A DNA stretch of 64,000 bases, taken from positions 372,001 to 436,000 of the forward strand of contig NZ_SEWW01000001.1 of NCBI RefSeq assembly GCF_011090385.1, in the 5' to 3' direction. The position numbers and the translations under genes are program-made. The notes below the pieces were generated by a model. That model searched no databases. It saw nothing but the letters and a program-made list of their open reading frames with translations, and was not told the origin of the DNA. The DNA comes from Aquirufa beregesia. GTDB lineage: Bacteria; Bacteroidota; Bacteroidia; Cytophagales; Spirosomataceae. The stretch's first letter is position 1. The number at the start of each line of letters is the position of its first letter. Shown one piece after another: positions 33,313 through 48,657 of the stretch.

Positions 33313-34206
33313 ATGCATACATTACCTAAATTTCACGGGGTAGCACCAGCCCTAATTACACCTATGCAAGCCGATCGAACGATTGATTGGAAGGCCTTAG
33401 GAAACCTTGTTCAGTACGTAACAACTGGCGGTGTCGATTATTTAGTAGTTCAAGGAACTACAGGAGAATCTGTAACTACTAGCGCAGATGAAAAGAAAAA
33501 AATCCTTGCTACTGTACAAGAGGCAAATACTCAAAATTTACCCATTGTTTATGGTTTAGGTGGAAACCATACTGAAAATTTAATTGCTCAAATCAAGCAG
33601 ACTTCTTTTGATGGCATTGATGCCATTTTATCTGTTTGTCCTTATTATAATAAGCCAAGTGCTCGCGGTGTTATCCAACATTACCGCGCGGTAGCAGATG
33701 CCAGTCCTGTTCCTGTTATTTTATACAATATCCCAGGAAGAACCGGAATTAATTTGTCGCCAGAAACTATTCTAAGCCTAGCCGAACATCCCAATATCAT
33801 TGGGGTGAAGGAGGCTTCCTGCATCATTGAACAATGTATGGAAATTGCCGCTCATAAACCGACAGATTTTCTTTTAATCTCAGGAGACGATGTTCAAGCT
33901 GTACCCATTATTTCCATAGGAGGTGTTGGAGTAATGTCTGTTATTGCTAATGCATTTCCTCATCAATTCTCACAAATGATTCATGCAGCTTTAGCTGGTG
34001 ATTTTGCAGAAGCTAGAAAATCATTAGGAAGTTTCTTAGCCATTGATCCTTTTTTATATGAAGAGGGTAATCCAGTAGGTGTTAAGAAAATTTTAGCCTT
34101 AAAAGGCATGATTCAGGCTCAAGTTCGCATGCCATTAGCTGAAGCATCAGAAGAATTAGGAGTAAAATTGAACCGTATTATTCAACAAGAAAACTTATCC
34201 AATTAA
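33313..34206 (+). CDS. dapA: 4-hydroxy-tetrahydrodipicolinate synthase
   Basis: Condenses pyruvate with aspartate semialdehyde in lysine and diaminopimelate synthesis. The Schiff-base lysine is K166 in GVKEAS, the catalytic tyrosine Y138 is in ILYNIPGR, and GTTGES and CPYYNKPSARG match true DapA. Length 297 is typical. It follows ligA by 3 bases. DapA-like aldolases can also cleave keto-deoxy sugar acids, and a fucose locus starts 2 kb downstream, but the motifs and the ligA linkage favour lysine synthesis. Confidence 0.93.
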   Translation: MHTLPKFHGVAPALITPMQADRTIDWKALGNLVQYVTTGGVDYLVVQGTTGESVTTSADEKKKILATVQEANTQNLPIVYGLGGNHTENLIAQIKQTSFDGIDAILSVCPYYNKPSARGVIQHYRAVADASPVPVILYNIPGRTGINLSPETILSLAEHPNIIGVKEASCIIEQCMEIAAHKPTDFLLISGDDVQAVPIISIGGVGVMSVIANAFPHQFSQMIHAALAGDFAEARKSLGSFLAIDPFLYEEGNPVGVKKILALKGMIQAQVRMPLAEASEELGVKLNRIIQQENLSN

Positions 34207-34512: not shown

Positions 34513-34942
34513 AGTACTTAGTTTCAGTTTCCTATTCTTGTTGGCCGCTTGTTCAAAAAACGTCAAGCCTTCAAGCTATTATTCTCCCAATTATAAGGAT
34601 GGAGGTGTAGATCGCCATGACGGATTGGGTTTTGAAATACCTGTTAAGTATGCCATTGATGTATTTTATTTCAATGAAAGTCCAAAGCAATCCTACGAAG
34701 TCATTGAAAGCATCAGTATTTCTGGAGAAGTACCTTTGGAAAACAACCAAACGGTTAATGGAAAAATGCTTAACCGCGGTAATCATCAAACTAAGAAACA
34801 AGAAATCTTAAGTCAATTAGTCGAAAAAGCTACTGAAATGGGTGCTAGTGCCTTGATGGATGTAAAATATCAAGTTTATAGCACCCAATATGCCAATGGC
34901 TATACATTTAGCGGAAAAGCGATTCGTTACGTGTTGAAATAA
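34493..34942 (+). CDS. small lipoprotein of unknown function
   Basis: A 149-residue protein with a lipoprotein signal peptide: a short basic N-terminus, a hydrophobic core and a lipobox LLAAC (Cys20). The mature part is polar and beta-rich, ending in GKAIRYVLK, with a segment (SQLVEKATEMGASALMDVKYQVY) that resembles YbjQ- or heavy-metal-binding-like folds in style only. No function assigned. It overlaps the Dabb gene at its start and the convergent fucosidase by 35 bases at its end. Confidence 0.75.
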   Translation: MTQKAFKVLSFSFLFLLAACSKNVKPSSYYSPNYKDGGVDRHDGLGFEIPVKYAIDVFYFNESPKQSYEVIESISISGEVPLENNQTVNGKMLNRGNHQTKKQEILSQLVEKATEMGASALMDVKYQVYSTQYANGYTFSGKAIRYVLK

Positions 34943-36344
34943 TTCGATAAAGAGCCAAATTAGAAATCAATGGTTGGGCTCGATACTCTTCTAAAATGAT
35001 GCGAATCTGCTTTACCTTTCTTTCTGGGAAGGTAAGCATTCGTTTATTTCCAATGGTTTTGGCTTTAATTAGCCATTTTTCTCCATTTTCAGATGCTATT
35101 TCTACCGAAAATGCCTTGATTCTTTGACCTAAAGCAATAGGTTCTTGAAGTTGCAATGTGTTCGAATGTACTGCGTGATCTAATGTAATGACCATACTTG
35201 GCTGTGCATCACTAACTTGCGGAGCCCAAGCACTTGATGGGTCTTTATCAGATAAGTATTTAACTGAATATGTAGCATTAAACGTTGAACTTACTTGAAT
35301 CTTAGTGGAGCTAGGCTGCAATAAATTGATTAAGCTTTTCTTTCTTAATTCCGCAAAACCCATCATGGAAGCAGAATCATTGGGATGTATCAAACCTCGC
35401 GTATCTACGGGGATGTTTAGGAGTAAATTGGAATTTCTCCCTACAGATGCCACGTAAATCTTCATTAAGGAATCTGGACTTTTCACTCGATTATCCTCCT
35501 TGGGATGATAATACCAACCCGGACGAATAGAAACATCAACTTCAGGTGCCACCCAGTGAGTTCCGTTTTCTTGTCCATGCCGATATCGATCGAATTGTGG
35601 GTATCCTGGGTAAATTTCATCACGATTGATAGGACTCCAAGAAGTTTCGTAGTTGTAGCCGCGCTCATTTCCTACCCAACGAATATCTGGTCCATTATCT
35701 GAAAATTGAACCGCATTAGGCTGATATTTATTGACCATGGCATGAAATAAGGGCCAATCGTATACTTGCTTCTTTCCATTAGGGCCTTCACCATTAGCAC
35801 CGTCGTACCAAAATTCAAAAATAGGACCATATTGAGTCAATAACTCTTTTTGCATTTCTGCATAAATTTTGTTGTATTCATCAGTGCCATAGGCAGGATG
35901 AAAACGATCCCAAGGAGAAAGATAAATCCCCAATTTCAAACCATATTCTTTACATGCTAGGGCTAATTCCTTAACTACATCTCCTTTACCATTTTTCCAA
36001 GGAGATTTCGCCACAGAATGAGTAGTAAACTTAGAAGGATACAAGGCAAATCCATCATGATGCTTGGCCGTTACTATTAACCCTTTCATACCAGCCGCCT
36101 TGGCAATTCTAGCCCATTGTCGGCAATCCAAAGCACTAGGATTAAAATTGGATGGAGATTCTTTTCCTTCACCCCATTCTACATTGGTAAACGTATTCAT
36201 ATTAAAATGTATGAAGCCATAATATTCCAATGCTTGCCATCGAATTTGTTTCGGAGAAGGGAGCGGGGCAACGGGGACTATTTGTTGAGCAAATGTGCTA
36301 AAAATTGAACTCAAATAAACGCTAGCAAGTAGAATGAAACGCAT
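34908..36344 (-). CDS. exported GH29 alpha-L-fucosidase
   Basis: Hydrolyses terminal alpha-L-fucose from glycans, probably in the periplasm or outside. The start at 36344 gives a clean signal peptide (MRFILLASVYLSSIFSTFAQ); an in-frame ATG at 36437 would add 31 residues that spoil it. The GH29 signatures are RWQALEYYGFIHFNMNTFT, TAKHHDGFALYPS and the nucleophile region FEFWYDGANGEG with Asp181 as the likely nucleophile. After the barrel comes a beta-sandwich (about 330-478). It lies divergent from the fucose catabolic operon beginning at 36568 and shares its 223-base upstream region, so coregulation by fucose is likely. Confidence 0.9.
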   Translation of the reverse strand: MRFILLASVYLSSIFSTFAQQIVPVAPLPSPKQIRWQALEYYGFIHFNMNTFTNVEWGEGKESPSNFNPSALDCRQWARIAKAAGMKGLIVTAKHHDGFALYPSKFTTHSVAKSPWKNGKGDVVKELALACKEYGLKLGIYLSPWDRFHPAYGTDEYNKIYAEMQKELLTQYGPIFEFWYDGANGEGPNGKKQVYDWPLFHAMVNKYQPNAVQFSDNGPDIRWVGNERGYNYETSWSPINRDEIYPGYPQFDRYRHGQENGTHWVAPEVDVSIRPGWYYHPKEDNRVKSPDSLMKIYVASVGRNSNLLLNIPVDTRGLIHPNDSASMMGFAELRKKSLINLLQPSSTKIQVSSTFNATYSVKYLSDKDPSSAWAPQVSDAQPSMVITLDHAVHSNTLQLQEPIALGQRIKAFSVEIASENGEKWLIKAKTIGNKRMLTFPERKVKQIRIILEEYRAQPLISNLALYRIISTRNESLFR

Positions 36345-36386
36345 GAAGGTATTTTTTAACGTGAGCAAGTAGATAAGAAAAAATTC

Positions 36387-36498
36387 ATTGATACTAATTA
36401 TAAAATTGATACAATAATTTCGGTGGAAAAACCTCAATTCAGGATTTATTGAAATTTGATTGAACTATTTTAACATTTAACATAAGAATAATTAGTAT
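36387..36498. promoter_or_regulatory. repeat-rich control region between fucosidase and fucP
   Basis: The AT-rich gap holds ATTGATAC at 36387-36394 and again at 36405-36412 (18 bases apart), and ATACTAATT at 36391-36399 with its inverted copy AATTAGTAT at 36490-36498. These could be operator half-sites for a fucose regulator. No regulator gene lies nearby and no clear -33/-7 pair was found. Evidence is repeat geometry only. Confidence 0.35.
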
Positions 36499-36567
36499 AA
36501 AACTAAATTTAATAAAAAAAAGCAGGTAAATTAAAGCTGCTAAACTCTTTTAACATAAAGTATCTGC

Positions 36568-37911
36568 ATGGCCTTACCCATTAACTCTGGAGAACAATTA
36601 GAACTAAGTCAAAGCAAAGACAATACTAATTATTTACTTCCTTTTATCTTAGTTACTAGTCTATTTTTTCTTTGGGGATTAGCCAATAGCTTGAATGGAA
36701 CCTTAGTTAAACAATTTCAAATAGCTTTAGATTTACAACGTTGGCAAGCCAATATCGTAGAGACTGCCTTTTATATGGGATATTTTGTCATGGCTATTCC
36801 TGCAGGGATGGTCATGCGAAAATTAGGTTATAAAATGGGTATATTAATGGGTCTAATCCTTTATTCAGCAGGAGCATTTTTATTTTATCCTGCCGCTGCC
36901 GTAAGACAATACAGCTTTTTCTTGGGTGCCCTATTTCTGATAGCCAGTGGAATTGCCTTTTTAGAAACAGCTGCTAATTTATATGTAACTGTGCTTGGGG
37001 ACCCCAAGAAAGGAGATTTTCGACTAAATTTGGCGCAGTCATTCAATGGTATAAGCACGATATTGGGTCCAGTTATTGGTGGTTTATTCATTTTTTCGGA
37101 TCGGGAATATTCTCGTGACATGATTCAAGCGTTACCAGCTGCTGAAGCAGAAGCCATTCGCGTCAGTCAAGCCGAATCCGTTCAAGGACCCTATTTAGCA
37201 ATAGGCTTGGTAGTGGCGATTGTTGCCATATTGTTCGCCATTACTAAAATGCCGGAGGTAAAAGCGGCAGGAGAAAGTAAGTCGAGTGACAGTAAAATTA
37301 CTATTTCTAGTTTACTCAAAAACAAGCATTTACGATTAGGCGTTATCGCACAATTTTGCAATATCGGAGCACAAGTTTCGCTGTGGGGAAATTTTGTTGA
37401 CTTCAAATTAGACTTTGCCAGAGACTCCAATTTATGGATAGTTGAACAAATTTATCAAACTACGGAAAGTATGACTGCTACTCAAATTGCTAGTTTTCAT
37501 GCTTCATTTGCCTTTATTTTATTTATGGTTGGTCGATTCATTGGTACCTATTTTATGGGTAAATATGAATCAAATCGAGTATTAGGTATTTATGCCGTTG
37601 GTTCTGTTCTTTCCATCATCATTGCTATGTTGGGAGGAGGAATCTTAGCAGTTATTGCATTAATGATGGTATATTTTTTCCAATCCATTATGTTTCCTAC
37701 TATCTTTGCACTGGCATGTAAAGATTTGGGAGAAGGTTCGAAGTTAGCCTCGTCATTACTTATTATGTCCATTGTTGGAGGAGCTATTATTCCGCCATTT
37801 ACAGCTTACCTATTTAAAATAGGTCCATCATTAGCATTAGGCATTCCTTTACTTTGCTTTGTGTTTATTGTATATTACGCGTACCAGGGATTTAAAATCC
37901 AAAAAGTCTAG
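36568..37911 (+). CDS. fucP: L-fucose:H+ symporter (FucP-type MFS permease)
   Basis: Imports L-fucose with protons across the inner membrane. The 447-residue protein has 12 predicted transmembrane segments and the FucP signature near the start, SLFFLWGLANSLNGTLVKQF, then IVETAFYMGYFVMAIPAGMVMRKLGYKMG and the ETAANLYVTVLGDP motif with the glutamate that binds sugar in E. coli FucP (E135 there). It heads the fucose operon and faces an exported fucosidase. Hexose transporters of the same family exist, but the neighbours make fucose the likely substrate. Confidence 0.88.
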   Translation: MALPINSGEQLELSQSKDNTNYLLPFILVTSLFFLWGLANSLNGTLVKQFQIALDLQRWQANIVETAFYMGYFVMAIPAGMVMRKLGYKMGILMGLILYSAGAFLFYPAAAVRQYSFFLGALFLIASGIAFLETAANLYVTVLGDPKKGDFRLNLAQSFNGISTILGPVIGGLFIFSDREYSRDMIQALPAAEAEAIRVSQAESVQGPYLAIGLVVAIVAILFAITKMPEVKAAGESKSSDSKITISSLLKNKHLRLGVIAQFCNIGAQVSLWGNFVDFKLDFARDSNLWIVEQIYQTTESMTATQIASFHASFAFILFMVGRFIGTYFMGKYESNRVLGIYAVGSVLSIIIAMLGGGILAVIALMMVYFFQSIMFPTIFALACKDLGEGSKLASSLLIMSIVGGAIIPPFTAYLFKIGPSLALGIPLLCFVFIVYYAYQGFKIQKV

Positions 37912-37915
37912 GATT

Positions 37916-38245
37916 ATGCAACGATTTATGCTAATGCTGGACTTAAAAAATGAATCTAAACTTATTCAAACCTATGAAAACTATCACCAAAACATCCCCG
38001 CTGAAATTGCGGAAAGCATCCGTGAATCTGGAATTGAATCCATGGAAATTTATCGCTTTGAAAACCGACTAGTCATGGAGATTGTCGCCCATGACAATTT
38101 CAGTTTTGAGGAAAAAAGCAAGCTAGATGCCTCGAATAAAAAGGTTCAGGCATGGGAACAACTCATGAGTCAATTTCAGCAAGTGATACCCGGCACTCCA
38201 GAAGGAGTTAAGTGGGTATTAGCTAAACATATCTTTAAACTATAA
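37916..38245 (+). CDS. L-rhamnose/L-fucose mutarotase (DUF718, RhaM-like)
   Basis: Interconverts alpha and beta anomers of a 6-deoxyhexose. The 109-residue protein has the DUF718 dimeric barrel: RFMLMLDLKNE at the start, ENYHQNIPAEIAESIRESGI with the catalytic histidine, IYRFENRLVMEIVA and a late Trp in QAWEQLMSQF. The ATG at 37916 follows the fucP stop by 4 bases; an upstream in-frame start at 37859 would lie inside fucP. E. coli uses the unrelated FucU, but the C. jejuni fucose locus, as I recall, also uses a DUF718 protein. L-fucose is the probable substrate here. Confidence 0.88.
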   Translation: MQRFMLMLDLKNESKLIQTYENYHQNIPAEIAESIRESGIESMEIYRFENRLVMEIVAHDNFSFEEKSKLDASNKKVQAWEQLMSQFQQVIPGTPEGVKWVLAKHIFKL

Positions 38246-38260
38246 TTTAAAACTATTTTA

Positions 38261-39916
38261 ATGTCTCGTTCTTACTTACAAATACACCCCTTAGATAATT
38301 TACTCGTTGCGCTAAAAGACTTAAAAGCTGGTACTATCATACAACATCAAGGTCAGGAAATTACATTAAAGGACGATATTGCTGCTAAACATAAATTTAG
38401 TACAATAGATATTCCTAAGGGTGATACGGCTACGATGTACGGTGTTTTAGTAGGTGTGGCTACCCAAGATATTCCCAAAGGTGGATTAATTCATACTTTT
38501 AATTTACACCATGCCTCACAAGATTTTTTAGGAAAACAGAAAGAATATTCTTGGGAAGCACCCAATGTCGATCGGTGGAAAAATTCCACATTTAAAGGTT
38601 ATCAAAGACCTGATGGTCAGGTAGGTACTCAAAATTATTGGCTAGTTATTCCTTTAGTGTTTTGTGAAAATCGAAATATAGAATTACTCAAAAATGCCTT
38701 TATCAAAGGTTTAGGATTTCAAAAGAATGACCCATTTACCGACCAGGTCATTGAATTGAAAAATCAATTGGAAAGTGGTAAAGAATTAAAAACAAACGAA
38801 ATAAAAAGCACATTTAAAGGTGAATTACTTCAGAAATCGGAATCTTTCCCTAATGTAGATGGAATTAAATTTTTACGTCATGAAAGTGGATGTGGTGAAA
38901 GCAAAGATGACTCTGACATGCTTTGTGCTTTATTAGCGGGCTATTGTGTCAATCCCAATGTGGGTGGAATTTCTGTGTTAAGCTTAGGCTGCCAACATTC
39001 ACAAATTGAAACATTCAAAAATAGCCTAAAAGCTATTGATCCTAATTTTTCTAAGCCTATACATTTCTTTGAACAACAACAAGATGAGGGTAGTGGTGTT
39101 GAAAATTTATTGAGTGAAGTCATCTTAAAAACATTTCAAGGTCTGGTAGAAATCAATAAAATTAATAGAACAGATACACCACTCTCTAAATTACGTTTAG
39201 GGGTAAAATGTGGAGGTTCTGATGGTTTCTCAGGTATTTCTGCCAATCCAGCTATCGGACATACAGCTGATTTATTGGTTGCCCTAGGTGGCACCGTGAT
39301 GATCGCTGAATTTCCAGAATTATGTGGTGTAGAACAGGAATTACAAAATAGATCGGTGGATGCAACGGTAGCTGATAATTTTGGTAAATTGATGCGCGAA
39401 TATGCTAGAAGAGCAGAAGCCGTTGGTGCAGGTTTTGATATGAATCCTTCACCAGGTAATATTAAGGATGGCTTAATTACTGATGCCATTAAATCTGCTG
39501 GAGCTGCCAAGAAAGCAGGAACTTCACCCATTGTAGATGCCTTAGGTTACGGTCAATACGCTAAAAAACATGGCTTAAATTTAGTTTGTACTCCAGGAAA
39601 TGATGTATTAGCTACAACTGGTATGGCAGGAGCAGGGGCAACGGTACAACTATTTACTACGGGCTTAGGAACTCCAACAGGAAATCCGATCAGCCCTATG
39701 GTTAAATTGTCTACCAATACCCGTTTAGCTGAAAAACTACCGGAAATCATTGATATTGATTGTGGTCCTATTATTTCCGGTGAAAAATCGGTCGAAGAAA
39801 TGGGGGAAGAAATATTGGATTATGTGATTCATTTAGCTTCAGGAGAAATCAACACCAAAGCCATGGAGCTTGGACAAGATGATTTCATGTTCTGGAGAAG
39901 GGGAGTATCTTTATAA
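38261..39916 (+). CDS. UxaA-family dehydratase, probable L-fuconate dehydratase
   Basis: A 551-residue altronate-dehydratase-like enzyme, iron- or Mn-dependent. An N-terminal SAF domain (about 1-95) is followed by the UxaA core with GYQRPDGQVGTQNYWLVIP, a HESGCGESKDDSD segment and LGVKCGGSDGFSGISANPAIG. In C. jejuni the same family is split into two genes (Cj0482/Cj0483) in the fucose locus; here the parts are fused. It probably converts L-fuconate to 2-keto-3-deoxy-L-fuconate, replacing the enolase-superfamily enzyme of Xanthomonas. Altronate or galactarate are alternatives, made less likely by the neighbours. Confidence 0.82.
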   Translation: MSRSYLQIHPLDNLLVALKDLKAGTIIQHQGQEITLKDDIAAKHKFSTIDIPKGDTATMYGVLVGVATQDIPKGGLIHTFNLHHASQDFLGKQKEYSWEAPNVDRWKNSTFKGYQRPDGQVGTQNYWLVIPLVFCENRNIELLKNAFIKGLGFQKNDPFTDQVIELKNQLESGKELKTNEIKSTFKGELLQKSESFPNVDGIKFLRHESGCGESKDDSDMLCALLAGYCVNPNVGGISVLSLGCQHSQIETFKNSLKAIDPNFSKPIHFFEQQQDEGSGVENLLSEVILKTFQGLVEINKINRTDTPLSKLRLGVKCGGSDGFSGISANPAIGHTADLLVALGGTVMIAEFPELCGVEQELQNRSVDATVADNFGKLMREYARRAEAVGAGFDMNPSPGNIKDGLITDAIKSAGAAKKAGTSPIVDALGYGQYAKKHGLNLVCTPGNDVLATTGMAGAGATVQLFTTGLGTPTGNPISPMVKLSTNTRLAEKLPEIIDIDCGPIISGEKSVEEMGEEILDYVIHLASGEINTKAMELGQDDFMFWRRGVSL

Positions 39917-39925
39917 TTTTAGCCT

Positions 39926-40693
39926 ATGTTATTTACATTAAAAAATAAGAAAGCAGTCATTACGGGTGGTGGATCTGGAATCGGAAAAGCCATTTCTTTA
40001 CTTTTCGCCAAACAGGGTGCAGAAGTTCACATGATTGATTTAGAAAATGCTAGCTCTCGTCAAACGGAAAAAGAATTAAAAAGCATTTCCCAGCAATCCC
40101 AACTTCATATTGTCAATATTACTCAATTAGAAGCCGTTAAGAACTTGGCAAGTGAATTAGGAAACATTGATATCCTTATCAATAATGCAGGAATTGCCCA
40201 AATTGGAAATCTAGAAAATACCACCTCTGAAGGCTTTCAGGCTATATTTGATGTCAATGTGAAAGGGGCTTTCCATTGTATGCAAGCATTTATTCCCGGT
40301 ATGTTAATCCAATCCAAGGGAGTGATTATGAATATGGCCTCCGTAGCGGCTTCAGTGGGCATACCAGATCGCTTTGGTTATTCTATGACCAAAGGAGCTA
40401 TTCGTTCCATGACACAATCGGTAGCCAAAGACTACATCCAACAAGGAATCCGATGCAATTGCATTTCTCCAGGAAGAGTACATACACCTTTTGTGGATGG
40501 ATTTATCGCCAAAAATTATCCAGACAAAAAAGAAGAAATGTTTGCCAAATTATCAGCGACTCAGCCCATCGGTCGTATGGCTCAACCAGAAGAAATTGCC
40601 CATTTAGCCTTATATTTATGTTCCGATGAAGCCTCTTTCATCACAGGTTGTGATTATCCTATCGATGGAGGTTTTACTTATTTAAACAATTAA
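39926..40693 (+). CDS. SDR oxidoreductase, probable 2-keto-3-deoxy-L-fuconate dehydrogenase
   Basis: A 255-residue classical short-chain dehydrogenase. The cofactor motif is TGGGSGIG with an acidic residue after beta-2 (MIDLE), favouring NAD. NNAG, a serine in MASVAAS and the Tyr-Lys pair in GYSMTKG are all intact. RVHTPFVDGFIAKNYPDK resembles keto-deoxy-fuconate dehydrogenases and the human DHRS6-like group. It would oxidise 2-keto-3-deoxy-L-fuconate to the 2,4-diketo acid, the substrate for the FAH enzyme at 41404. Reaction inferred from similarity and cluster. Confidence 0.8.
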   Translation: MLFTLKNKKAVITGGGSGIGKAISLLFAKQGAEVHMIDLENASSRQTEKELKSISQQSQLHIVNITQLEAVKNLASELGNIDILINNAGIAQIGNLENTTSEGFQAIFDVNVKGAFHCMQAFIPGMLIQSKGVIMNMASVAASVGIPDRFGYSMTKGAIRSMTQSVAKDYIQQGIRCNCISPGRVHTPFVDGFIAKNYPDKKEEMFAKLSATQPIGRMAQPEEIAHLALYLCSDEASFITGCDYPIDGGFTYLNN

Positions 40694-40701
40694 TTAATCC
40701 C

Positions 40702-41379
40702 ATGAAAAATAAGTTGATTTTCTCCATTGTCCTATTAATGGCTTCTTTAAGCTCTTTTAGTCCAGCTAATCCCATCAAAATCGTTTTCTTTGGTGATTCT
40801 ATTACCCAAGCTGGGGTTTCCAAAACTGGGTATATAACCCAACTGCAAGGTATGTTGGCTTCACAAGGTATAGGTGATCAATATGAATTAATAGGAGCCG
40901 GTATAGGTGGTAATAAAATTTATGATTTGTATCTACGTCATGAAGAGGATTTATTGGCCAAAAAACCCAACATTACTGTCATTTACATAGGAATAAACGA
41001 TGTTTGGCATAAAACATCTTCCAGAACGGGTACTGATGCTGATAAGTTTGAGCGTTTTTACAATGCTTTAATCAAGAAGATTCAATCAGCTGGCAGTCAA
41101 GTAGTTATTTGTACTCCAACAGTAATAGGCGAACGATTTGATGCAACAAACGAAAATGATGGAGATCTAAATCGCTATTCAGATATCATCCGCAGAATTG
41201 CAAAAAATAATAATTGTGCTTTGATTGATTTAAGAAAAGCCTTTTTAAGCTTTGAGCAAAACAATAATCCAGAAAATAAAGAGTCTGGCATTTTGACCAG
41301 CGATCGAGTACATTTGAATGAAGCTGGAAATAAATTTTTAGCAGAAACCATGTGGTCTGTACTAAAGGACATCAAATAA
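40702..41379 (+). CDS. exported SGNH/GDSL hydrolase
   Basis: A 225-residue protein with a signal peptide (MKNKLIFSIVLLMASLSSFSPA). The SGNH blocks are clear: nucleophile serine in FFGDSITQAG, glycine in GAGIGGNK, asparagine in IYIGINDVWH, and the Asp-His pair in SDRVHLNEAG. Such enzymes often remove O-acetyl groups from sugars. Placed inside the fucose operon, it may deacetylate a fucose-containing glycan before or after the fucosidase acts. The substrate is inference. Confidence 0.85.
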   Translation: MKNKLIFSIVLLMASLSSFSPANPIKIVFFGDSITQAGVSKTGYITQLQGMLASQGIGDQYELIGAGIGGNKIYDLYLRHEEDLLAKKPNITVIYIGINDVWHKTSSRTGTDADKFERFYNALIKKIQSAGSQVVICTPTVIGERFDATNENDGDLNRYSDIIRRIAKNNNCALIDLRKAFLSFEQNNNPENKESGILTSDRVHLNEAGNKFLAETMWSVLKDIK

Positions 41380-41403
41380 TACCCTTATAATTCAAAAATT
41401 AAC

Positions 41404-42252
41404 ATGAAATTAGTTCGTCTAGGAGCCCAAAACAATGAAAAACCTGCTGTTTTAATCGATGGTAAATACTTCGATGTCAGTACTTATTTTCAAGATTTCA
41501 ATGAAGCCTTCTTTGAGCAAGGAGGACTTGATAAGTTGGCAGATATTATTAGCAACGAAATATTAGAAGAAATAAGTAATCCAAAAAGAATTGGTTCATG
41601 CGTGGCTCGCCCTTCTAAAATCATATGTGTGGGATTAAATTATGCTGACCATGCCAAAGAAACAGGCGCTGCCATTCCTACGGAACCCATTTTGTTTTTC
41701 AAAAGCACATCTGCTTTAAGTGGCCCATTTGATGATGTCATTATCCCCAAAAACTCCATTAAGACGGATTGGGAAGTAGAATTTGCCATCGTAATAGGTA
41801 AAAAAGCCTCTTATATTAGCGAGGAAAAAGCGTATGACTATGTGGCGGGTTATTGCTTACACAATGATATTTCTGAAAGAGAGTTTCAATTAGAAAGAGG
41901 AGGAAATTGGTCCAAAGGTAAAGGCTGTGATACATTTGCCCCATTAGGACCATTTTTAGCCACAAAGGACGAAATTCAAGACGTGCACAACTTAAACATG
42001 TGGTTAGATATCAATGGAAAACGTTTTCAAACAAGTAACACGAAACAATTGATTTTCAATGTGCCACAAATTGTTTCTTATATATCTCAATTTATGACCT
42101 TATTACCGGGCGACGTGATTTCTACAGGAACACCACACGGAGTAGGACTTGGATTAAATCCCCCCGTATTTTTAAAACCTGGTGATATCATGACTTTAGG
42201 AATGGATGGTTTAGGTGAGCAAAAGCAAAAAGCCGTTGCCTACTCAGTATAA
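41404..42252 (+). CDS. fumarylacetoacetate-hydrolase-family enzyme, probable 2,4-diketo-3-deoxy-L-fuconate hydrolase
   Basis: A 282-residue FAH-fold metal enzyme. The pattern CVGLNYADHAKETG, PILFFKSTSAL, DWEVEFAIVIGKKA (metal glutamates) and STGTPHGVGLGLNPP is typical of the group that includes ureidoglycolate lyase-like proteins and diketo-deoxy-fuconate hydrolase. Here it would split the 2,4-diketo acid into pyruvate and L-lactate. The lactonase gene starts one base after the stop. The family is firm; the substrate comes from pathway context. Confidence 0.85.
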   Translation: MKLVRLGAQNNEKPAVLIDGKYFDVSTYFQDFNEAFFEQGGLDKLADIISNEILEEISNPKRIGSCVARPSKIICVGLNYADHAKETGAAIPTEPILFFKSTSALSGPFDDVIIPKNSIKTDWEVEFAIVIGKKASYISEEKAYDYVAGYCLHNDISEREFQLERGGNWSKGKGCDTFAPLGPFLATKDEIQDVHNLNMWLDINGKRFQTSNTKQLIFNVPQIVSYISQFMTLLPGDVISTGTPHGVGLGLNPPVFLKPGDIMTLGMDGLGEQKQKAVAYSV

Positions 42253-42253
42253 T

Positions 42254-43084
42254 ATGATTGATGCACATCAACACTTTTGGAATTATCAGCCTGAGCGAGA
42301 TACTTGGATTACCGATGATATGTCCAAAATTCAAGCTGATTTTTATCCCAATGAAAGTCAAATAATATTCGAAAAAAACGGAATTGATGGCTGCATAGCC
42401 GTTCAGGCAGATTCGTCGGAAGAGGAAACGCTCTTTCTCTTAGCATTGGCTGAACAAAATGATTTCATCAAAGGGGTAGTAGGGTGGACCGATCTACAAA
42501 ATGAACACCTAGAAAGTCGACTCGAGTATTTTTCGCAATTTGAAAAATGTGTGGGTTTCCGCCATGTGATCCAAGGAGAAAAAGACCCATTATTCTTTCA
42601 GAGGCCCCATTTTATTCAAGGCGTCAAACAATTAGCTGCCTTTGATTATACTTACGATATCTTAATTTACCCGCATCAATTAAAAGAGAGCGTCGCTTTT
42701 GCACAGAAAGTAGATGAACAGAAATTAATTTTAGACCATTTGGCTAAGCCTCCCTATAAGTCTAAAGACTTAACAAATTGGAAAAATGAACTAAGAGGAT
42801 ATCAAAAATTAGACCATGTTTCTGCCAAAATTTCTGGTTTAGTGACTGAAGCTGATTGGGCAAATTGGACAAAAGATGAAATCAAAGAAACCATCGATGT
42901 GGCTTTGGAGGTATTCGGCCCCAAAAGATTATTATTTGGTTCTGATTACCCAGTGGTATTGGTGGCCTCAACACTAGAAAAATGGTTGAAAGTATTTCAT
43001 GAAAGTATTACCAACTTATCTGCAACAGAACAAGCAGATATTAAATTAAATAATTGTTTAGCTTTCTATCAAGTAGAACTATAA
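42254..43084 (+). CDS. amidohydrolase-2 family lactonase, probable L-fuconolactonase
   Basis: A 276-residue TIM-barrel metal hydrolase. It begins MIDAHQHFWNYQPERDTWI with H5 and H7 as metal ligands and the HFW pattern seen in L-fuconolactonases and L-rhamnono-lactonases. Further motifs are VQADSSEEETLFLL, FRHVIQGEKDP, ILDHLAKP and the late FGSDYPV aspartate. The ATG at 42254 was chosen because it lies one base past the FAH stop; an in-frame start at 42215 would overlap that gene. It would open L-fucono-lactone to L-fuconate. Confidence 0.87.
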   Translation: MIDAHQHFWNYQPERDTWITDDMSKIQADFYPNESQIIFEKNGIDGCIAVQADSSEEETLFLLALAEQNDFIKGVVGWTDLQNEHLESRLEYFSQFEKCVGFRHVIQGEKDPLFFQRPHFIQGVKQLAAFDYTYDILIYPHQLKESVAFAQKVDEQKLILDHLAKPPYKSKDLTNWKNELRGYQKLDHVSAKISGLVTEADWANWTKDEIKETIDVALEVFGPKRLLFGSDYPVVLVASTLEKWLKVFHESITNLSATEQADIKLNNCLAFYQVEL

Positions 43085-43866
43085 TGAACCTAGGACTTAA
43101 AGAAAAGGTCATCATCGTAACTGGTGGTGCCAAAGGAATTGGAGAAGGAATTAGTCAATCATTGGCTTTAGAATCAGCTATGGTGGCTATTGTGGGAAGG
43201 AATAAAGAAGATAATGAAAAGGCCATTGCCAAAATTCAAGCCACGGGTGGTCAAGCATTCTCTTTTGTAGCTGAACTAAGCCGGCCTGAAGAATGTGAAC
43301 GTGTGGTGAATGAAGTATATCAATTTTTTGGTAAAATTGATGGTTTAGTTAACAATGCAGGAATCAATGATGGTGTAGGATTAGCCACTGGTAGCTATGA
43401 AAAATTTATGCAGTCGCTACATTCCAATTTGATTCATTATTATTTGATGGCCAAAGCTTGCTTGCCTCATTTAATCCAATCGAAAGGAGCCATCGTCAAT
43501 ATTGGTTCAAAAGTAGCTGAAACAGGTCAAGGTGGCACTTCTGCCTATGCCGCAGCCAATGGTGGTAGGAATGCACTAACCAGAGAATGGGCAGTGGAAT
43601 TATTGAAAGAGGGTGTCCGTGTAAACGCAGTTATCGTAGCAGAATGCTATACACCCTTGTACGACAGGTGGTTAAAAACCCTCCCCAATCCAGAAGAAAC
43701 CTTGGCTTCTATCACCGAAAAAATACCATTAGGGAAGAGAATGACCACTCCTGAGGAATTAGGGGATATGGTTACTTTTTTGATGTCTAAAAAATCAAGT
43801 CATACTACAGGCCAATTAATCCATGTAGATGGTGGTTATACACATTTAGATCGTGCATTAATATAA
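43084..43866 (+). CDS. SDR oxidoreductase, probable L-fucose dehydrogenase, with YxxxN in place of YxxxK
   Basis: A 260-residue short-chain dehydrogenase, probably making L-fuconolactone from L-fucose. The resemblance to L-fucose dehydrogenases lies in NNAGINDGVGL (90-100), SKVAETGQGGTSAYAAANGG, ALTREWAVELL and the EC(Y/W)TPLY segment. The cofactor motif TGGAKGIG is normal. Ser142 and Tyr155 are present, but the usual catalytic lysine four residues after the tyrosine is Asn159 (codon AAT at 43558-43560). The start codon shares its A with the lactonase stop (TAATG). Whether activity survives, or Asn is normal for this subgroup, needs comparison. Confidence 0.83.
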   Translation: MNLGLKEKVIIVTGGAKGIGEGISQSLALESAMVAIVGRNKEDNEKAIAKIQATGGQAFSFVAELSRPEECERVVNEVYQFFGKIDGLVNNAGINDGVGLATGSYEKFMQSLHSNLIHYYLMAKACLPHLIQSKGAIVNIGSKVAETGQGGTSAYAAANGGRNALTREWAVELLKEGVRVNAVIVAECYTPLYDRWLKTLPNPEETLASITEKIPLGKRMTTPEELGDMVTFLMSKKSSHTTGQLIHVDGGYTHLDRALI

Positions 43867-43867
43867 G

Positions 43868-44959
43868 ATGAGCATTGATTGTACAGAAATTCAAAGTCCA
43901 GGTCTATTGGTCTTTCCTGAAAAGGTAAAGCAAAATATTGCTTATGTTTTAAGTTTGGTAGATGGAGATCCGAATCGATTAAGGCCTCATATCAAAACTC
44001 ATAAAACGAAAGAAGTTAATGATTTACTGCTTGAGGCTGGAATAACCAAATTCAAATGCGCTACCATAGCTGAGGCTGAACTACTCGCTTTATCGCAAGC
44101 CCCTTCCATTTTATTAAGTATGCAGCCTACTGGACCTAATATAGTCCGTTTGGCTAATTTGGTTCAAGCTTATCCCCAAAGTCAATTTGCTTGCTTAGTC
44201 GATGATCTTCATGCCGCTCAAGCTATTTCTCAAATCTTTCAAGACAATGCACAGTCCATCAATGTATTCATCGACTTAAATGTAGGAATGAATCGAACAG
44301 GAATCATTCCAGGACAGGCAGCTTCATTGATTCATCAAATAAAGAGTTTACCAGCTTTAAAAATAAGTGGACTTCATGCCTACGATGGACATATTCGTGA
44401 TGTGAATTTAGAGGATAGAAAAGTACATGTTCAAAGAGATTTCATTGAATTTGAGGCATTGATTCAATCTATTTCATCTGAATTTCCAGACTTAGAATTG
44501 TGTGTAGGGGGGACTCCCAGTTTTTTAGTTCATCATCAGAATCCAGCCTATGTGTGTAGTCCTGGTACCTTTGTTTTTTTTGATGCAGGATATAGCTCCC
44601 TTTATCCTGAAAATAGCCTAGAACAAGCCCTTTACATCATCAGTAGAATTGTTTCCAAACCAAGTAAAACCAGTATTTGCTTGGATTTGGGTCATAAATC
44701 CGTCGCGGCAGAAAATTCCATTGAAAATCGAGTTCGATTTGTCGACTACCCAGAATTTAAGTTAATGAGCCAAAGTGAAGAACATGGAATCGTCGAAGTT
44801 CCTGATTCTGAATCATTTGAAATAGGTCAGGAGTTTTATATGATTCCTTACCATGTTTGTCCAACAGTTGCCTTGCATGCTAATTTGCAAGTAATAGAAG
44901 ATGACATATTTACCGGTATTTGGGAAGTAAAAGCTAGAAACAGAAAAATCAACATATAA
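43868..44959 (+). CDS. D-threonine-aldolase/D-serine-dehydratase-like PLP enzyme
   Basis: A 363-residue fold-type III PLP enzyme with an alanine-racemase-like barrel. The PLP lysine is in RPHIKTHKT, and the C-terminal metal-binding segment VCPTVALHANL resembles the DSD1/D-TA family. It starts one base after the SDR stop, clearly within the operon. Known members cleave D-threonine to glycine and acetaldehyde or dehydrate D-serine. No such step belongs to fucose oxidation, so the role here is unknown; a link to amino-acid-decorated glycans or to aldol chemistry on a sugar acid is speculation. Confidence 0.82.
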   Translation: MSIDCTEIQSPGLLVFPEKVKQNIAYVLSLVDGDPNRLRPHIKTHKTKEVNDLLLEAGITKFKCATIAEAELLALSQAPSILLSMQPTGPNIVRLANLVQAYPQSQFACLVDDLHAAQAISQIFQDNAQSINVFIDLNVGMNRTGIIPGQAASLIHQIKSLPALKISGLHAYDGHIRDVNLEDRKVHVQRDFIEFEALIQSISSEFPDLELCVGGTPSFLVHHQNPAYVCSPGTFVFFDAGYSSLYPENSLEQALYIISRIVSKPSKTSICLDLGHKSVAAENSIENRVRFVDYPEFKLMSQSEEHGIVEVPDSESFEIGQEFYMIPYHVCPTVALHANLQVIEDDIFTGIWEVKARNRKINI

Positions 44960-44960
44960 C

Positions 44961-46028
44961 ATGCTATTATTTGACGCACATTTAGACCTCAGCATGAATG
45001 CTTTGGAGTGGAATCGTGATTTAAGATCTTCATTGAAGGATATTAATGACAGAGAAAAAGGCATGATAGATAAACCTGATCGAGGCAATGCAGTCATTTC
45101 TTTGGATGAATTGAGAACAGGGAATATTGGTATTGTCGTTGCAACTCAAATTGCTCGATATGTCGATAAAAGCTCTACTTTACCTGGTTGGCATTCGCCT
45201 GAACAAGCCTGGGCACAAACTCAAGGGCAATTAGCCTATTACAAAGCATTAGAAACTTTAGGTGAATTAAGTCCTATTCGAAATTGGGAAGAACTCCAAA
45301 ATCATCTTACTTATTGGAATAGCAGCCAAGACAGTAAAAAGAAGATTGGGTATATCTTAAGTTTAGAAGGAGCAGATTCTATTATTACTGTAGATCATTT
45401 AGATATAGCTTATAACTACGGATTAAGAGCCTTAGGCCCTGCTCATTATGGACCTGGAAGATATGCTCAAGGGACAAATGCTACAGGGGGACTAGGCGAG
45501 AATGGCAGAGCTCTTCTAACAAGAATGCAGCAATTAGGTATCATTCTTGATGCCACGCATTTATGTGATGACAGCTTTTGGGAAGCCATGGAGCATTATG
45601 ATGGCCCAGTTTGGGCTAGCCACCATAATTGTAGAGTTTTGGTAGATCATAATCGCCAATTTACGGATGAACAATTCAAAGAATTGATTCGTCGGGATGC
45701 CGTGATAGGCATGCCATTAGATGCCTGGATGATGGTTTCTAATTGGGTAAGGGGTGTTTCCACACCTCAAAACATGCAGGTGAGCTTGAATACCATGATT
45801 GATCACTTGGATCATATTTGTCAAATTGCTGGAAATACCGACCACGTAGGACTAGGTACAGATTTAGATGGAGGATTTGGAACTGAACAATGTCCTTACG
45901 ACATTCAATCTATTGCCGATTTACAAAAAATACCTAATTTATTAAGCAACAGAGGCTATTCTGAACATGACATTGAAAAAATATGTCACAAAAACTGGAT
46001 AGGTTTTTTAGAGAAAAACTGGCAATAA
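44961..46028 (+). CDS. M19 membrane-dipeptidase-like metalloenzyme
   Basis: A 355-residue renal-dipeptidase-family protein. The metal ligands are recognisable: DAHLDLS at the start (HxD), the glutamate in LSLEGADS, DATHLCDD, SHHNCRVL and the late GLGTDLDGGFG. No signal peptide, so probably cytoplasmic. The family hydrolyses dipeptides, often with D-residues, or beta-lactams. It is last in the fucose operon, one base after the D-threonine-aldolase-like gene. Its presence with that gene suggests an amino acid amide attached to the imported sugar, but this is inference. Confidence 0.85.
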   Translation: MLLFDAHLDLSMNALEWNRDLRSSLKDINDREKGMIDKPDRGNAVISLDELRTGNIGIVVATQIARYVDKSSTLPGWHSPEQAWAQTQGQLAYYKALETLGELSPIRNWEELQNHLTYWNSSQDSKKKIGYILSLEGADSIITVDHLDIAYNYGLRALGPAHYGPGRYAQGTNATGGLGENGRALLTRMQQLGIILDATHLCDDSFWEAMEHYDGPVWASHHNCRVLVDHNRQFTDEQFKELIRRDAVIGMPLDAWMMVSNWVRGVSTPQNMQVSLNTMIDHLDHICQIAGNTDHVGLGTDLDGGFGTEQCPYDIQSIADLQKIPNLLSNRGYSEHDIEKICHKNWIGFLEKNWQ

Positions 46029-46134: not shown

Positions 46135-46884
46135 TCAATTAGGGGGTATCCCCACCGAAGTCCAGCCGCCATCAATGACTAAAAACTGGCCAGTGATGTG
46201 TTTGGAAAGAGGAGAGAGGAAAAATAAAGCTGCATTCGCGATATCTTCCACTGTGGCTGGGTAGCCCAATGGAGTAATAGCTGACCATTCTTTGATATAA
46301 TCTTGATCAGAAAGCGTTCTTTCAGTTAAGGTTGCTCCTGGGCTAATCGTATTGATACGAATTTGAAAAGGAGAAAGGTCAATCACCAAATTCTTAGCCA
46401 ATTGATTCAAAGCTGCTTTAGTCATTCCATAAGCTGCTAAATCAGGATGAGCTTGATGACCTGTAACTGACGACATCAATAAAATACTTCCACCATTTCC
46501 TGAGTCTCTAAGTTTTTGAGCTATCAATTGGGCCAAAAAGAAGGTTCCTTTGATGTTAATCTTCAATATTTGATCTAATGATTCTTTGGTATAAGACCAA
46601 AAATCTCCGAAAGTAGTGATACCTGCATTACAAACACATCCAGCTAATGTACCAGGCGTTTGATCTATCAGATTGGAGAGCGAGTCCAAAAATTCATCGG
46701 AACTAGCATCAGCACAAATACTGGAAAATTGATATAGTCCAAGGTGGTGTAATTGTGCTTGAGCTTTTTCAATTTGTTCCTGATTGATATCATTCCAAAT
46801 AACATAGTCTCCCTGCAATAAAATAGACTTAACTATCTCAAATCCAATACCTTGTGCAGCACCCGTAACAATATACTTTAACAT
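46135..46884 (-). CDS. SDR family oxidoreductase of unknown substrate
   Basis: A 249-residue classical short-chain dehydrogenase. The cofactor motif is TGAAQGIG, with an aspartate after beta-2 (WNDINQ) suggesting NAD. CNAG stands for NNAG, the serine is in LMSSVTG, YGMTK holds Tyr and Lys, and SPGAT follows. It lies downstream of the IlvD/Edd dehydratase but beyond a terminator, so it may have its own promoter or rely on read-through. A sugar or sugar-acid dehydrogenase acting with the dehydratase is plausible. Confidence 0.85.
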   Translation of the reverse strand: MLKYIVTGAAQGIGFEIVKSILLQGDYVIWNDINQEQIEKAQAQLHHLGLYQFSSICADASSDEFLDSLSNLIDQTPGTLAGCVCNAGITTFGDFWSYTKESLDQILKINIKGTFFLAQLIAQKLRDSGNGGSILLMSSVTGHQAHPDLAAYGMTKAALNQLAKNLVIDLSPFQIRINTISPGATLTERTLSDQDYIKEWSAITPLGYPATVEDIANAALFFLSPLSKHITGQFLVIDGGWTSVGIPPN

Positions 46885-46941: not shown

Positions 46942-48657
46942 TTAATGGGAATCTCTTGTCACCACAGAACCTGATCCTCCTTTTAGGAAATCAAAATCAG
47001 CCCCCTCGTGGGCTTGGGATACACGATCAATAAATAGACCTACATAACCTCGAATATGCGCTTGTGCTTGGAAAGGCTGAGCTTGTTTACGTACTTCCAA
47101 TTCTTCATCAGATACTTCCCAATGAATGGATCTATTATCTAAATCCAAAGCAATATAATCGCCATTTTGAACCCAATTTAATGGACCCCCAGCAGCAGAT
47201 TCAGGGGAAACGTGTAATACAACGGTTCCAAATCCTGTACCGCTCATACGTCCATCAGAAATACGAACCATGTCTTTCACACCTTTTTCCAAGAGTTTTT
47301 TAGGTATACCCATATTACCAACCTCGGCCATACCTGGATATCCTTTAGGACCCACATTTTTCAAAACCATCACCGAGTTTTCATCGATATCTAAATCTGG
47401 ATGATCAATACGAGCATGATAGTCTTCAATATTTTCAAAAACAACTGCTTTTCCCCGATGTTTATATAACTCAGGTGAAGCTGCACTTGGCTTAACCACA
47501 GCACCATTGGGAGCCAAATTACCTTTTACCACCGCAATTCCAGAATCTGGTTTAAAGGGATTCTCCATGGTAGATATGATCTTGGAATCATAAATAGGGG
47601 TATTCGCTATATTTTCACCGACCGTTTTACCATTCACAGTAATGATTCCCGTATGTAAAAATTCCTTCATTTGATTCATCAAAGCAGGTAAGCCACCGGC
47701 ATAATATAAATCTTCCATGAAGTGCTCTCCTGAAGGCTGAATATTAGCCAATAAAGGAATTTGCTTGGAGAATTTATCAAAATCATTTAGATCCAATTCC
47801 ACACCAATACGACCAGCAATGGCCAATAGATGGATGACAAAATTCGTGGAACCTCCTGTAGCAGCATTCACACGAATGGCATTTTCAAATGCCTCGCGCG
47901 TAAGTACTTTAGAAAGTTTTAAATCTTCCTTCACCATTTCCACAATCCTTCTTCCTGAATGCTGAGCCAAGACTTTTCTACGTACATCGGCAGCAGGAAT
48001 GGCTGCATTTTGTGGTAAACTTAATCCCAAGGCTTCCACCATAGTAGCCATCGTAGAGGCTGTGCCCATAACTGCACAGTGACCTGGCGTACGAGCCATA
48101 CAGGCTTCTGCTTCAATAAACTCTGCTTGAGATAATTCTCCTAGCTTGTAAGCTTCAGCAAAGCGCCATACATCAGATGTACCAATTTCTTTTCCTTTAA
48201 ACTTTCCTTTCATCATAGGTCCTCCAGAAATAACCAAACTAGGTAAATCCACACTGCAAGCGCCCATGACCAAAGAAGGAGTGGTTTTATCACAACCACA
48301 CATCAATACCACACCGTCAATTGGATTAGCACGAATAGATTCCTCTACGTCCATACTTGCCAAATTACGGTATAACATCGCTGTAGGCTTAATCAATGTT
48401 TCCCCCAAAGACATCACAGGGAATTCAACTGGAAATCCACCTGCTTCAATGACCCCTTTTTTAACAAATTCAGCTAATTCTCTAAAATGAGCATTACAAG
48501 GGGTTAATTCTGACCAAGTATTACATATACCAATAACTGGTTTCCCCTGAAAATAATCATCAGGAATACCCTGATTTTTCATCCATGCACGATAAATAAA
48601 TCCGTCTTTACCTGTCTTGCCAAACCATTGTTGCGATCGTAATTTTTGCTCACTCAT
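46942..48657 (-). CDS. IlvD/Edd-family sugar-acid dehydratase
   Basis: A 571-residue Fe-S dehydratase. The opening LRSQQWFGKTGKDGFIYRAW and GICNTWSELTPCN, RNLASMDVEESIRANP, LMCGCDKTTPS, and NAATGGSTNFVIHLLAIAGR belong to the pentonate/hexonate subgroup (L-arabinonate, D-xylonate and related acids) rather than branched-chain IlvD. Cysteines in CNTWSELTPCN and CGCDKT would hold the cluster. It overlaps the small membrane protein gene by 4 bases (ATGA). The substrate could be L-arabinonate, D-xylonate, L-fuconate or galactonate; the last gene before its terminator. Confidence 0.87.
   Translation of the reverse strand: MSEQKLRSQQWFGKTGKDGFIYRAWMKNQGIPDDYFQGKPVIGICNTWSELTPCNAHFRELAEFVKKGVIEAGGFPVEFPVMSLGETLIKPTAMLYRNLASMDVEESIRANPIDGVVLMCGCDKTTPSLVMGACSVDLPSLVISGGPMMKGKFKGKEIGTSDVWRFAEAYKLGELSQAEFIEAEACMARTPGHCAVMGTASTMATMVEALGLSLPQNAAIPAADVRRKVLAQHSGRRIVEMVKEDLKLSKVLTREAFENAIRVNAATGGSTNFVIHLLAIAGRIGVELDLNDFDKFSKQIPLLANIQPSGEHFMEDLYYAGGLPALMNQMKEFLHTGIITVNGKTVGENIANTPIYDSKIISTMENPFKPDSGIAVVKGNLAPNGAVVKPSAASPELYKHRGKAVVFENIEDYHARIDHPDLDIDENSVMVLKNVGPKGYPGMAEVGNMGIPKKLLEKGVKDMVRISDGRMSGTGFGTVVLHVSPESAAGGPLNWVQNGDYIALDLDNRSIHWEVSDEELEVRKQAQPFQAQAHIRGYVGLFIDRVSQAHEGADFDFLKGGSGSVVTRDSH

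Follow-up and report, generated by a model that had tools for sequence, protein, structure and literature searches.

Which enzyme removes water from L-fuconate in an L-fucose operon that encodes no enolase-type dehydratase? This question is raised by a locus of Aquirufa beregesia (Bacteroidota, Cytophagales, Spirosomataceae; assembly GCF_011090385.1, contig NZ_SEWW01000001.1), located at 34908-46028 of a stretch of 64,000 nucleotides, hereafter the window, in a host genome of 3.23 Mb in 72 contigs that is 99.99% complete. In this locus a minus-strand GH29 gene opposes 10 genes that all run in one direction, which we consider highly likely to form a non-phosphorylating Route III L-fucose operon with a UxaA-family L-fuconate dehydratase. 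A preliminary description of the window had proposed a GH29 fucosidase facing a 10-gene operon that oxidizes L-fucose to pyruvate and L-lactate, with a fused UxaA protein replacing the enolase-type fuconate dehydratase and no classical L-fucose isomerase. The gene families that it named were recovered, and both the route and the replacement are supported by the sequence and co-occurrence evidence below, including the SDR1 ligand pattern, the PDB relatives, an exchange with enolase-type proteins, and wide conservation. Genomes of a 148-genome set of the order, retrieved loci, and contigs are denoted by G, L, and C numbers, respectively, and citations by PMC number refer to portions of the open-access text of each paper.

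The operon and its proposed route

The operon spans 36568-46028, and its 10 co-directional genes, counting an SGNH hydrolase, a D-threonine-aldolase-like, and an M19 gene, have junctions of 4, 15, 9, 8, 24, 1, -1, 1, and 1 bases. The second short-chain dehydrogenase/reductase (SDR) step is encoded by SDR1 (39926-40693, plus strand), a proposed NAD+-dependent L-2-keto-3-deoxyfuconate (L-KDF) 4-dehydrogenase (FucF). Its top PDB relatives, 8XWK, 8Y4J, and 8Y11, are entries of the L-KDF 4-dehydrogenase of Herbaspirillum huttiense (entry identity from PMC11199699), and its residues at the positions of Arg148, Thr183, Arg192, and Arg214, read by hand from the PDB alignment, are R-R-F-T, a pattern that by sequence provides the arginine ligands for the C1 carboxylate expected of an L-KDF 4-dehydrogenase. 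This ligand pattern is type 4 in the same paper, where a type 4 enzyme, SMI01S_RS12625 of Sphingobacterium mizutaii, was assayed in 2024 as a strictly NAD+-dependent L-KDF dehydrogenase with a kcat/Km of 2730 per min per mM (PMC11199699). Among the retrieved loci, some of them overlapping, the pattern R-R-[FY]-[TSA] was kept in all 53 SDR1 rows with at least 48% identity, 32 of which had R-R-F-T; the 10 commonest patterns listed for 19 more distant SDR rows included none of this type. Judged by sequence, SDR1 is the best marker of the pathway among the operon genes.

The remaining pathway genes were assigned by profile and structure matches. FucP, an L-fucose:H+ symporter (36568-37911, plus strand), exceeded its equivalog cut-off (TIGR00885, 373.3 > 280.4), and so did the L-fucose 1-dehydrogenase (FucA, hereafter FDH; 43084-43866, plus strand; NF052481, 398.5 > 300), an SDR protein. 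An L-fucose/L-rhamnose mutarotase of the DUF718 family (rhaM, in the FucM role) is encoded at 37916-38245 on the plus strand (PF05336, 81.8 bits). The first equivalog match of the amidohydrolase proposed as L-fucono-1,5-lactonase (FucB; 42254-43084, plus strand, start ATG at 42254) was NF052480 (266.9, cut-off 400), and its best PDB relative was 4dlf, which we take to be the Burkholderia multivorans lactonase. The FAH-family protein proposed as L-2,4-diketo-3-deoxyfuconate hydrolase (FucG; 41404-42252, plus strand; PF01557) had as its first equivalog match a rhamnonate-type hydrolase model (NF053535, 359.5, cut-off 500) and as its best PDB relative 8gsr, titled L-2,4-diketo-3-deoxyrhamnonate hydrolase; the rhamnose and fucose routes have the diketo intermediate in common (PMC11199699). 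The best PDB relatives of FDH were 4gkb and then 6drr, the former, identical in sequence to 4gvx, being named as the B. multivorans L-fucose dehydrogenase (PMC13406643).

The GH29 α-L-fucosidase (34908-36437, minus strand, likely ATG at 36344; PF01120, 126.8 bits, cut-off 25.2) carries an F5/8 type C domain and, by eye, an N-terminal hydrophobic stretch resembling a signal peptide, so that its export is probable. Algal and microbial slimes commonly contain L-fucose, and the fucosidase would free this sugar outside the cytoplasm, after which FucP would take it up and the mutarotase would interconvert its anomers. FDH would then convert L-fucose to L-fuconolactone, the amidohydrolase would open the lactone to L-fuconate, and the UxaA-family enzyme, probably iron-bound, would remove water to give L-KDF, which SDR1 would oxidize at C4 with NAD+ before the FAH hydrolase cleaves the resulting diketo acid to pyruvate and L-lactate. 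The L-lactate would probably be oxidized by a LutB/LutC-like pair of LUD-domain proteins that we identified elsewhere in the genome. We infer the exact substrates of the UxaA protein, the lactonase, and the FAH hydrolase, as well as induction of the operon by fucose. Across the divergent intergenic region between GH29 and FucP (36345-36567), a Bacteroidota-type promoter consensus, searched with 0 mismatches, gave no match, and its 2 matches in the window are no more than expected by chance.

A search of the host genome for L-fucose isomerase (FucI, PF07881) gave no match. Fucose isomerase domain matches of 123-126 bits were found in 2 genomes of the window's UxaA clade (described below), G039 (C17:18303-18812, on its fucose-cluster contig) and G095 (C63:134070-134579). 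A DapA-family gene lies upstream of the operon (33313-34206), and its product might split L-KDF into pyruvate and lactaldehyde, the Route I outcome suggested by the Campylobacter jejuni gene set. This is extremely improbable, since the protein exceeds the cut-off for biosynthetic DapA (TIGR00674, 293.3 > 206.15), 3 genes separate it from FucP, and the operon itself encodes SDR1 and the FAH hydrolase.

The UxaA-family dehydratase across genomes

The proposed L-fuconate dehydratase (FucC; 38261-39916, plus strand) unites the SAF, second, and C-terminal domains of the UxaA/GarD superfamily, described in PMC6336799, in a single chain of 551 amino acids (PF08666, PF04295, PF20629). It matched GarD (6u7l), an altronate hydrolase N-terminal domain (3k3s), and 3laz in the PDB and shares 36% identity with UxaA of E. 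coli; against the model of the galactarate dehydratase GarD it scored 285.4, under the cut-off of 730.85 (TIGR03248). Cys135, Cys211, Cys244, and Cys317 were present in all 67 aligned superfamily rows, including E. coli UxaA and GarD, and the 4 conserved cysteines are the proposed iron ligands (PMC6336799). A search of the host genome identified this UxaA gene only. No enolase-type dehydratase was found in the operon by profile search; the genome has 1 MR_MLE_N match, on another contig and of 34.1 bits (cut-off 22), and no relative of the operon-borne enolase-type protein of G132 at E <= 1e-20.

A comparison across the order was made in 148 genomes, with genome sets compiled by hand from the search listings: UxaA was identified in 56, FDH in 40, SDR1 in 38, and UxaC in 54. 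UxaA was present in 38 of 40 genomes with FDH vs 18 of 108 without it (Fisher p 4e-19, kinship ignored), and SDR1 likewise in 38 of the 40. Among the 94 genomes without UxaC, UxaA was found in 5 of 7 with FDH vs 1 of 87 without (p 2e-6, kinship ignored). These counts treat as UxaA-positive 3 genomes with a match that was not retrieved as a locus, in G096 (C189) and G120, both matches being partial at contig ends, and in G058 (6 stop codons in the match), G120 being 1 of the 5 with FDH and without UxaC. Only 2 genomes had FDH without UxaA: G132 and the 72% complete G110. The former encodes an enolase-superfamily protein directly before SDR1, FAH, and lactonase genes on one strand, in the place that UxaA occupies in the window (L106), with FDH, FucP, and mutarotase genes approximately 8 kb from this cluster (L105, L106). 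The protein is 65% identical to that of a Rahnella plasmid cluster; in the plasmid fucose clusters of Rahnella and Granulicella, the stretch viewed encodes a protein of this superfamily and has no UxaA, and an unannotated Burkholderia stagnalis record (L102) has one among its fucose genes by similarity only. From their context, the enolase-superfamily proteins of such clusters would be L-fuconate dehydratases.

Beyond the order, named genomes were scanned through the best 80 of 591 UxaA relatives, a selection that may leave out records very near the window. The nearest named relative among the matches listed was Aquirufa ecclesiirivi, with a UxaA 96% identical and the same gene order. SDR1 together with FAH, FDH, or lactonase genes accompanied 20 of the 80 relatives, and such UxaA fucose clusters occurred in Aquirufa, Pedobacter, Daejeonella, Sphingobacterium, Flavobacterium, Elizabethkingia, Chryseobacterium, Dyadobacter, metagenome-assembled genomes (MAGs) of Acidobacteria, and others. 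Pedobacter sp. B4-66, Daejeonella lutea, and Pedobacter psychroterrae had the window's order of FucP, RhaM, UxaA, SDR1, FAH, lactonase, and FDH with no SGNH match, and a Hymenobacter tibetensis plasmid had a divergent AraC gene followed by UxaA, SDR, FAH, FDH, and FucP genes. Because no FucI, no close enolase-type relative, and only 1 UxaA were found, UxaA co-occurs with FDH, and the operon recurs, the UxaA-family protein is very probably the L-fuconate dehydratase of this operon.

The placement of UxaA was analyzed in 2 quick trees with support by the Shimodaira-Hasegawa-like approximate likelihood ratio test (SH-aLRT) only, no row being dropped for length. The 92-row tree excluded the duplicate L199 and rows outside fucose, hexuronate, and L-galactose-like contexts; fucose context was defined differently in the order-set and named-scan analyses, and 5 L-galactose-like rows were relabelled by hand. 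In the first tree, the window's UxaA fell in a clade of 6 rows (SH-aLRT 99), all 6 beside FDH.

Several observations weigh against the dehydratase assignment and the route around it. Both the lactonase and the FAH protein score under their equivalog cut-offs, and the tie of UxaA to UxaC (UxaA in 50 of 54 UxaC genomes) is as strong as that to FDH. For the enolase-superfamily protein of G132, no curated NCBIfam model was matched above its cut-off (the best score was 125.6 against 500), so its role is read from context. Fucose-context UxaA proteins do not form one clade, with at least 5 context changes among 45 labelled rows and 8 in the 92-row tree, and because context changes repeatedly, family alone leaves the substrate of UxaA unfixed. 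The assayed H. huttiense member of the family, C785_RS13685, dehydrates D-arabinonate and has a relative activity of 5.6% on L-fuconate, and for a product formed from a poor substrate the nuclear magnetic resonance (NMR) spectrum differed from expectation (PMC6336799); D-arabinose could therefore be a true substrate here. Finally, an IlvD/EDD dehydratase gene adjoins the operon.

An operon for D-arabinose, L-galactose, or L-rhamnose instead of L-fucose would agree with FucX of C. jejuni accepting D-arabinose too (PMC6946681, PMC12566272) and with the best equivalog of the FAH protein being the rhamnonate-type hydrolase, an enzyme of the same diketo acid (PMC11199699). We consider this very improbable given a GH29 fucosidase and FucP, an FDH above the L-fucose dehydrogenase cut-off, the type 4 pattern of SDR1, and the absence from the operon of the tagaturonate reductase and Zn-dehydrogenase of L-galactose-like clusters elsewhere.

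The IlvD/EDD gene (46942-48657, minus strand) and SDR2 (46135-46884, minus strand), both outside the operon, had gone unmentioned in the preliminary description, and the former encodes the sole rival dehydratase in the window, a sugar-acid dehydratase nearest the L-arabinonate type (NF004784, 898.5 > 539; NF009559, 825.9 < 882; PDB 8ej0, 5j83). Lying 0.9 kb behind the operon, it might dehydrate L-fuconate and leave UxaA to altronate only. Its gene is on the opposite strand, however, and of the fucose-context loci that were examined only those of the window's genus and 1 close MAG contained it (window, L032, L125, L126; the contig of L127 ends earlier). Further, the C2-C4 stereochemistry of L-arabinonate is the mirror image of that of L-fuconate, which also counts against IlvD/EDD as the L-fuconate dehydratase. 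This alternative is very improbable, and UxaA remains the preferred enzyme.

UxaA-family genes also occurred in other contexts. Clusters of Zn-dehydrogenase, UxaA, tagaturonate reductase, fuconolactonase-like, FucDH-like or aldo-keto reductase, and FucP genes, often with a mutarotase (L164 8924-16232; L161, L191, L198; L078, L079, L083, L084, L087), were identified in Zobellia, Aquimarina, a Maribacter MAG, a Bacteroidetes MAG, and 1 Cytophagales family and resemble a route for L-galactose through tagaturonate and altronate. In L095 (5471-9650), L169, and L174, UxaA with Lys at residue 246 is accompanied by an aldehyde dehydrogenase, which an FAH protein joins on a Runella plasmid; this suggests a Route II pentonate pathway. 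A UxaA-family gene approximately 45% identical to the window's was listed in 3 E. coli records (L097 5710-9584); in the 1 record viewed the gene is preceded by IclR, DHDPS-family, and MFS genes, in a sugar-acid locus perhaps of aldolase type.

Possible sharing with the galacturonate route and residue 246

A single promiscuous UxaA may dehydrate both L-fuconate in this operon and D-altronate from a separate galacturonate locus, an extension of the UxaA assignment that stands in no contradiction to it and that we regard as evenly balanced between likely and unlikely. The host locus L090 (contig C25) encodes UxaC (NF002794, 635 > 387), tagaturonate reductase (NF002969, 548.9 > 359), and KdgK-, KdgA-, and transporter-like proteins and has no altronate dehydratase, the only UxaA of the genome being that of the fucose operon. 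UxaC and UxuA can serve glucuronate, and the host has 2 UxuA genes on C11; the product of tagaturonate reductase is D-altronate, and UxaA would therefore be needed. Of 148 genomes, 33 had both FDH and UxaC, none of them without UxaA and 28 with exactly 1. This single UxaA was in the fucose cluster in 10 genomes, 9 of which had tagaturonate reductase, and beside hexuronate genes in 7 (in 3, a tagaturonate-reductase-like gene only). The latter 7 genomes had a separate fucose cluster with SDR1, FAH, and FDH, whose retrieved stretch showed no marker of UxaA, IlvD, or enolase, and had no enolase relative at 1e-20. In the other 11 the gene was elsewhere, 5 times beside SDR1 or FDH alone. These reciprocal UxaA gaps between fucose and hexuronate loci suggest one dehydratase for both routes. 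A 2019 Mol Microbiol paper reportedly, going by its title, concerns promiscuity of the UxaA/GarD-type family in fucose and other routes. The C2-C4 configuration of L-fuconate is that of D-arabinonate, which counts for a shared dehydratase. D-altronate likewise matches D-arabinonate at C2-C4 (PMC6336799).

Some specialization is argued for by residue 246, which varies with context, and the evidence for a shared enzyme is one of gene presence, not activity. Position 246, chosen among the best-separating columns of the first, 148-genome set, was the column that, across both sets, gave the best separation between fucose and hexuronate rows. His246 was present in 13 of 17 fucose rows vs 1 of 17 hexuronate rows in the first set, and in 17 of 20 vs 4 of 25 among the named relatives, 2 of whose 80 rows are identical to first-set rows. 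On a tree built without this column, 7 pairs of independent context change comprised on average 4.5 in the same direction, 0.1 in the opposite direction, and 2.4 with no difference (median p 0.0625), which is suggestive only. The exceptions are L127, with Asn246 despite a gene order like that of the window up to its contig end; L081 and H. tibetensis, with Lys246; and 6 of the 7 single UxaAs beside hexuronate genes, which have Asn246 in genomes whose fucose cluster has no visible dehydratase. Further, of the 10 genomes whose single UxaA lies in the fucose cluster, 3 had an enolase-type relative of 43-45% identity elsewhere, and exactly these 3 had Asn246. Post hoc, the Asn246 fucose-context rows of the 148-genome set were G127, G139, and G073, all with an enolase relative elsewhere. 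Given the exceptions and the phylogenetic test, we rejected residue 246 as a clean marker of specificity and treat it as a lead. In the window's family, a protein with 43-45% identity to the enolase-type one was observed in G010, G073, G127, and G139, with Asn246 in the UxaA of the last 3 and in 1 of the 2 UxaAs of G010.

Tentatively, and with somewhat less than even confidence, we propose that in many Cytophagales including the host one UxaA is common to unlinked L-fucose and D-galacturonate routes and is encoded in either operon, and that fucose-context enzymes repeatedly gained His246 beside an iron-ligand cysteine while altronate-context enzymes mostly have Asn, which would be a shift of preference and not an exclusive substrate.

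Accessory genes and relation to known systems

Of the accessory genes, the SGNH/GDSL hydrolase between SDR1 and the FAH gene (40702-41379, plus strand; PF13472, 94.8 bits) has a hydrophobic N-terminus and is a possible de-acylase, with a weak match to the acetylxylan esterase model NF042968 (38.9, cut-off 700). The operon closes at 43868-46028 with a D-threonine aldolase/D-serine dehydratase-like enzyme of the pyridoxal 5'-phosphate type (43868-44959, plus strand; PF01168, PF14031) and an M19 membrane-dipeptidase family protein (44961-46028, plus strand; PF01244, 167.1 bits), a pair that recurs with fucose genes in G057 (L072), of another family.

Because the UxaA fucose cluster recurs in many Bacteroidota genera, an annotation as altronate dehydratase can mask a fucose pathway. 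An L-fuconate dehydratase was reported missing from Algoriphagus marincola HL-49 (PMC5507952); its locus L154 carries a UxaA with His246 beside a tagaturonate-reductase-like gene, and UxaA is a candidate for the missing enzyme. If one enzyme does serve both pathways, calls of galacturonate or fucose use from gene presence need rethinking in this phylum. Nothing on the UxaA step was found in the portions of PMC11378808, PMC9007349, PMC8857213, and PMC5698469, and in the main text, apart from figures and supplements, of the open-access literature searched, we found no mention, for Bacteroidota, of the step assigned here to UxaA, no work on Aquirufa and fucose, and none combining 'fuconate dehydratase' with altronate and Bacteroidetes.

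The preliminary description had presented the pathway as a hybrid, which does not hold as a novelty: a UxaA-using fucose route is already known in kind, a UxaA/GarD-type L-fuconate dehydratase and a Route III cluster induced by L-fucose having been reported in 2019 (PMC6336799) and a type 4 dehydrogenase assayed in 2024 (PMC11199699). The novelty may lie in one promiscuous dehydratase for L-fucose and D-galacturonate. Overall, the operon appears to be a well-conserved example of a pathway type already known; sequence supports the enzyme assignment well, and there is a hint of enzyme sharing.

The closest precedent is Paraburkholderia mimosarum, whose Route III cluster is induced by L-fucose and whose UxaA/GarD member was assigned as L-fuconate dehydratase by gene context (PMC6336799). 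The route through L-KDF, a 4-dehydrogenase, and a hydrolase, with a dehydratase of the same superfamily, is alike, whereas that dehydratase is heteromeric, in 2 pieces, and the window encodes one fused chain. S. mizutaii, of the same phylum, resembles the window in the R-R-F-T pattern of SMI01S_RS12625, a likeness by pattern and not by direct sequence comparison, and in a fucose gene context according to the authors (PMC11199699), although the dehydrogenase alone was assayed there. Xanthomonas campestris and B. multivorans have FucDH, lactonase, L-KDF dehydrogenase, and hydrolase in common with the window, but the L-fuconate dehydratase of Xanthomonas belongs to the enolase superfamily. The fuc locus of C. 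jejuni, for which the gene list (PMC6946681), induction, and a proposed UxaA-type role on L-fuconate (PMC12566272) are given, likewise includes FucP, the FucX dehydrogenase, an amidohydrolase, a mutarotase, and UxaA-type (altronate hydrolase) genes; its UxaA is in 2 pieces, and DapA-type and aldehyde dehydrogenase genes stand instead of SDR1 and FAH. E. coli UxaA, a D-altronate dehydratase, shares the superfamily and the 4 conserved cysteines with the window's protein but differs in sequence (36% identity), in adjoining UxaC, and in having Asn where the window has His246.

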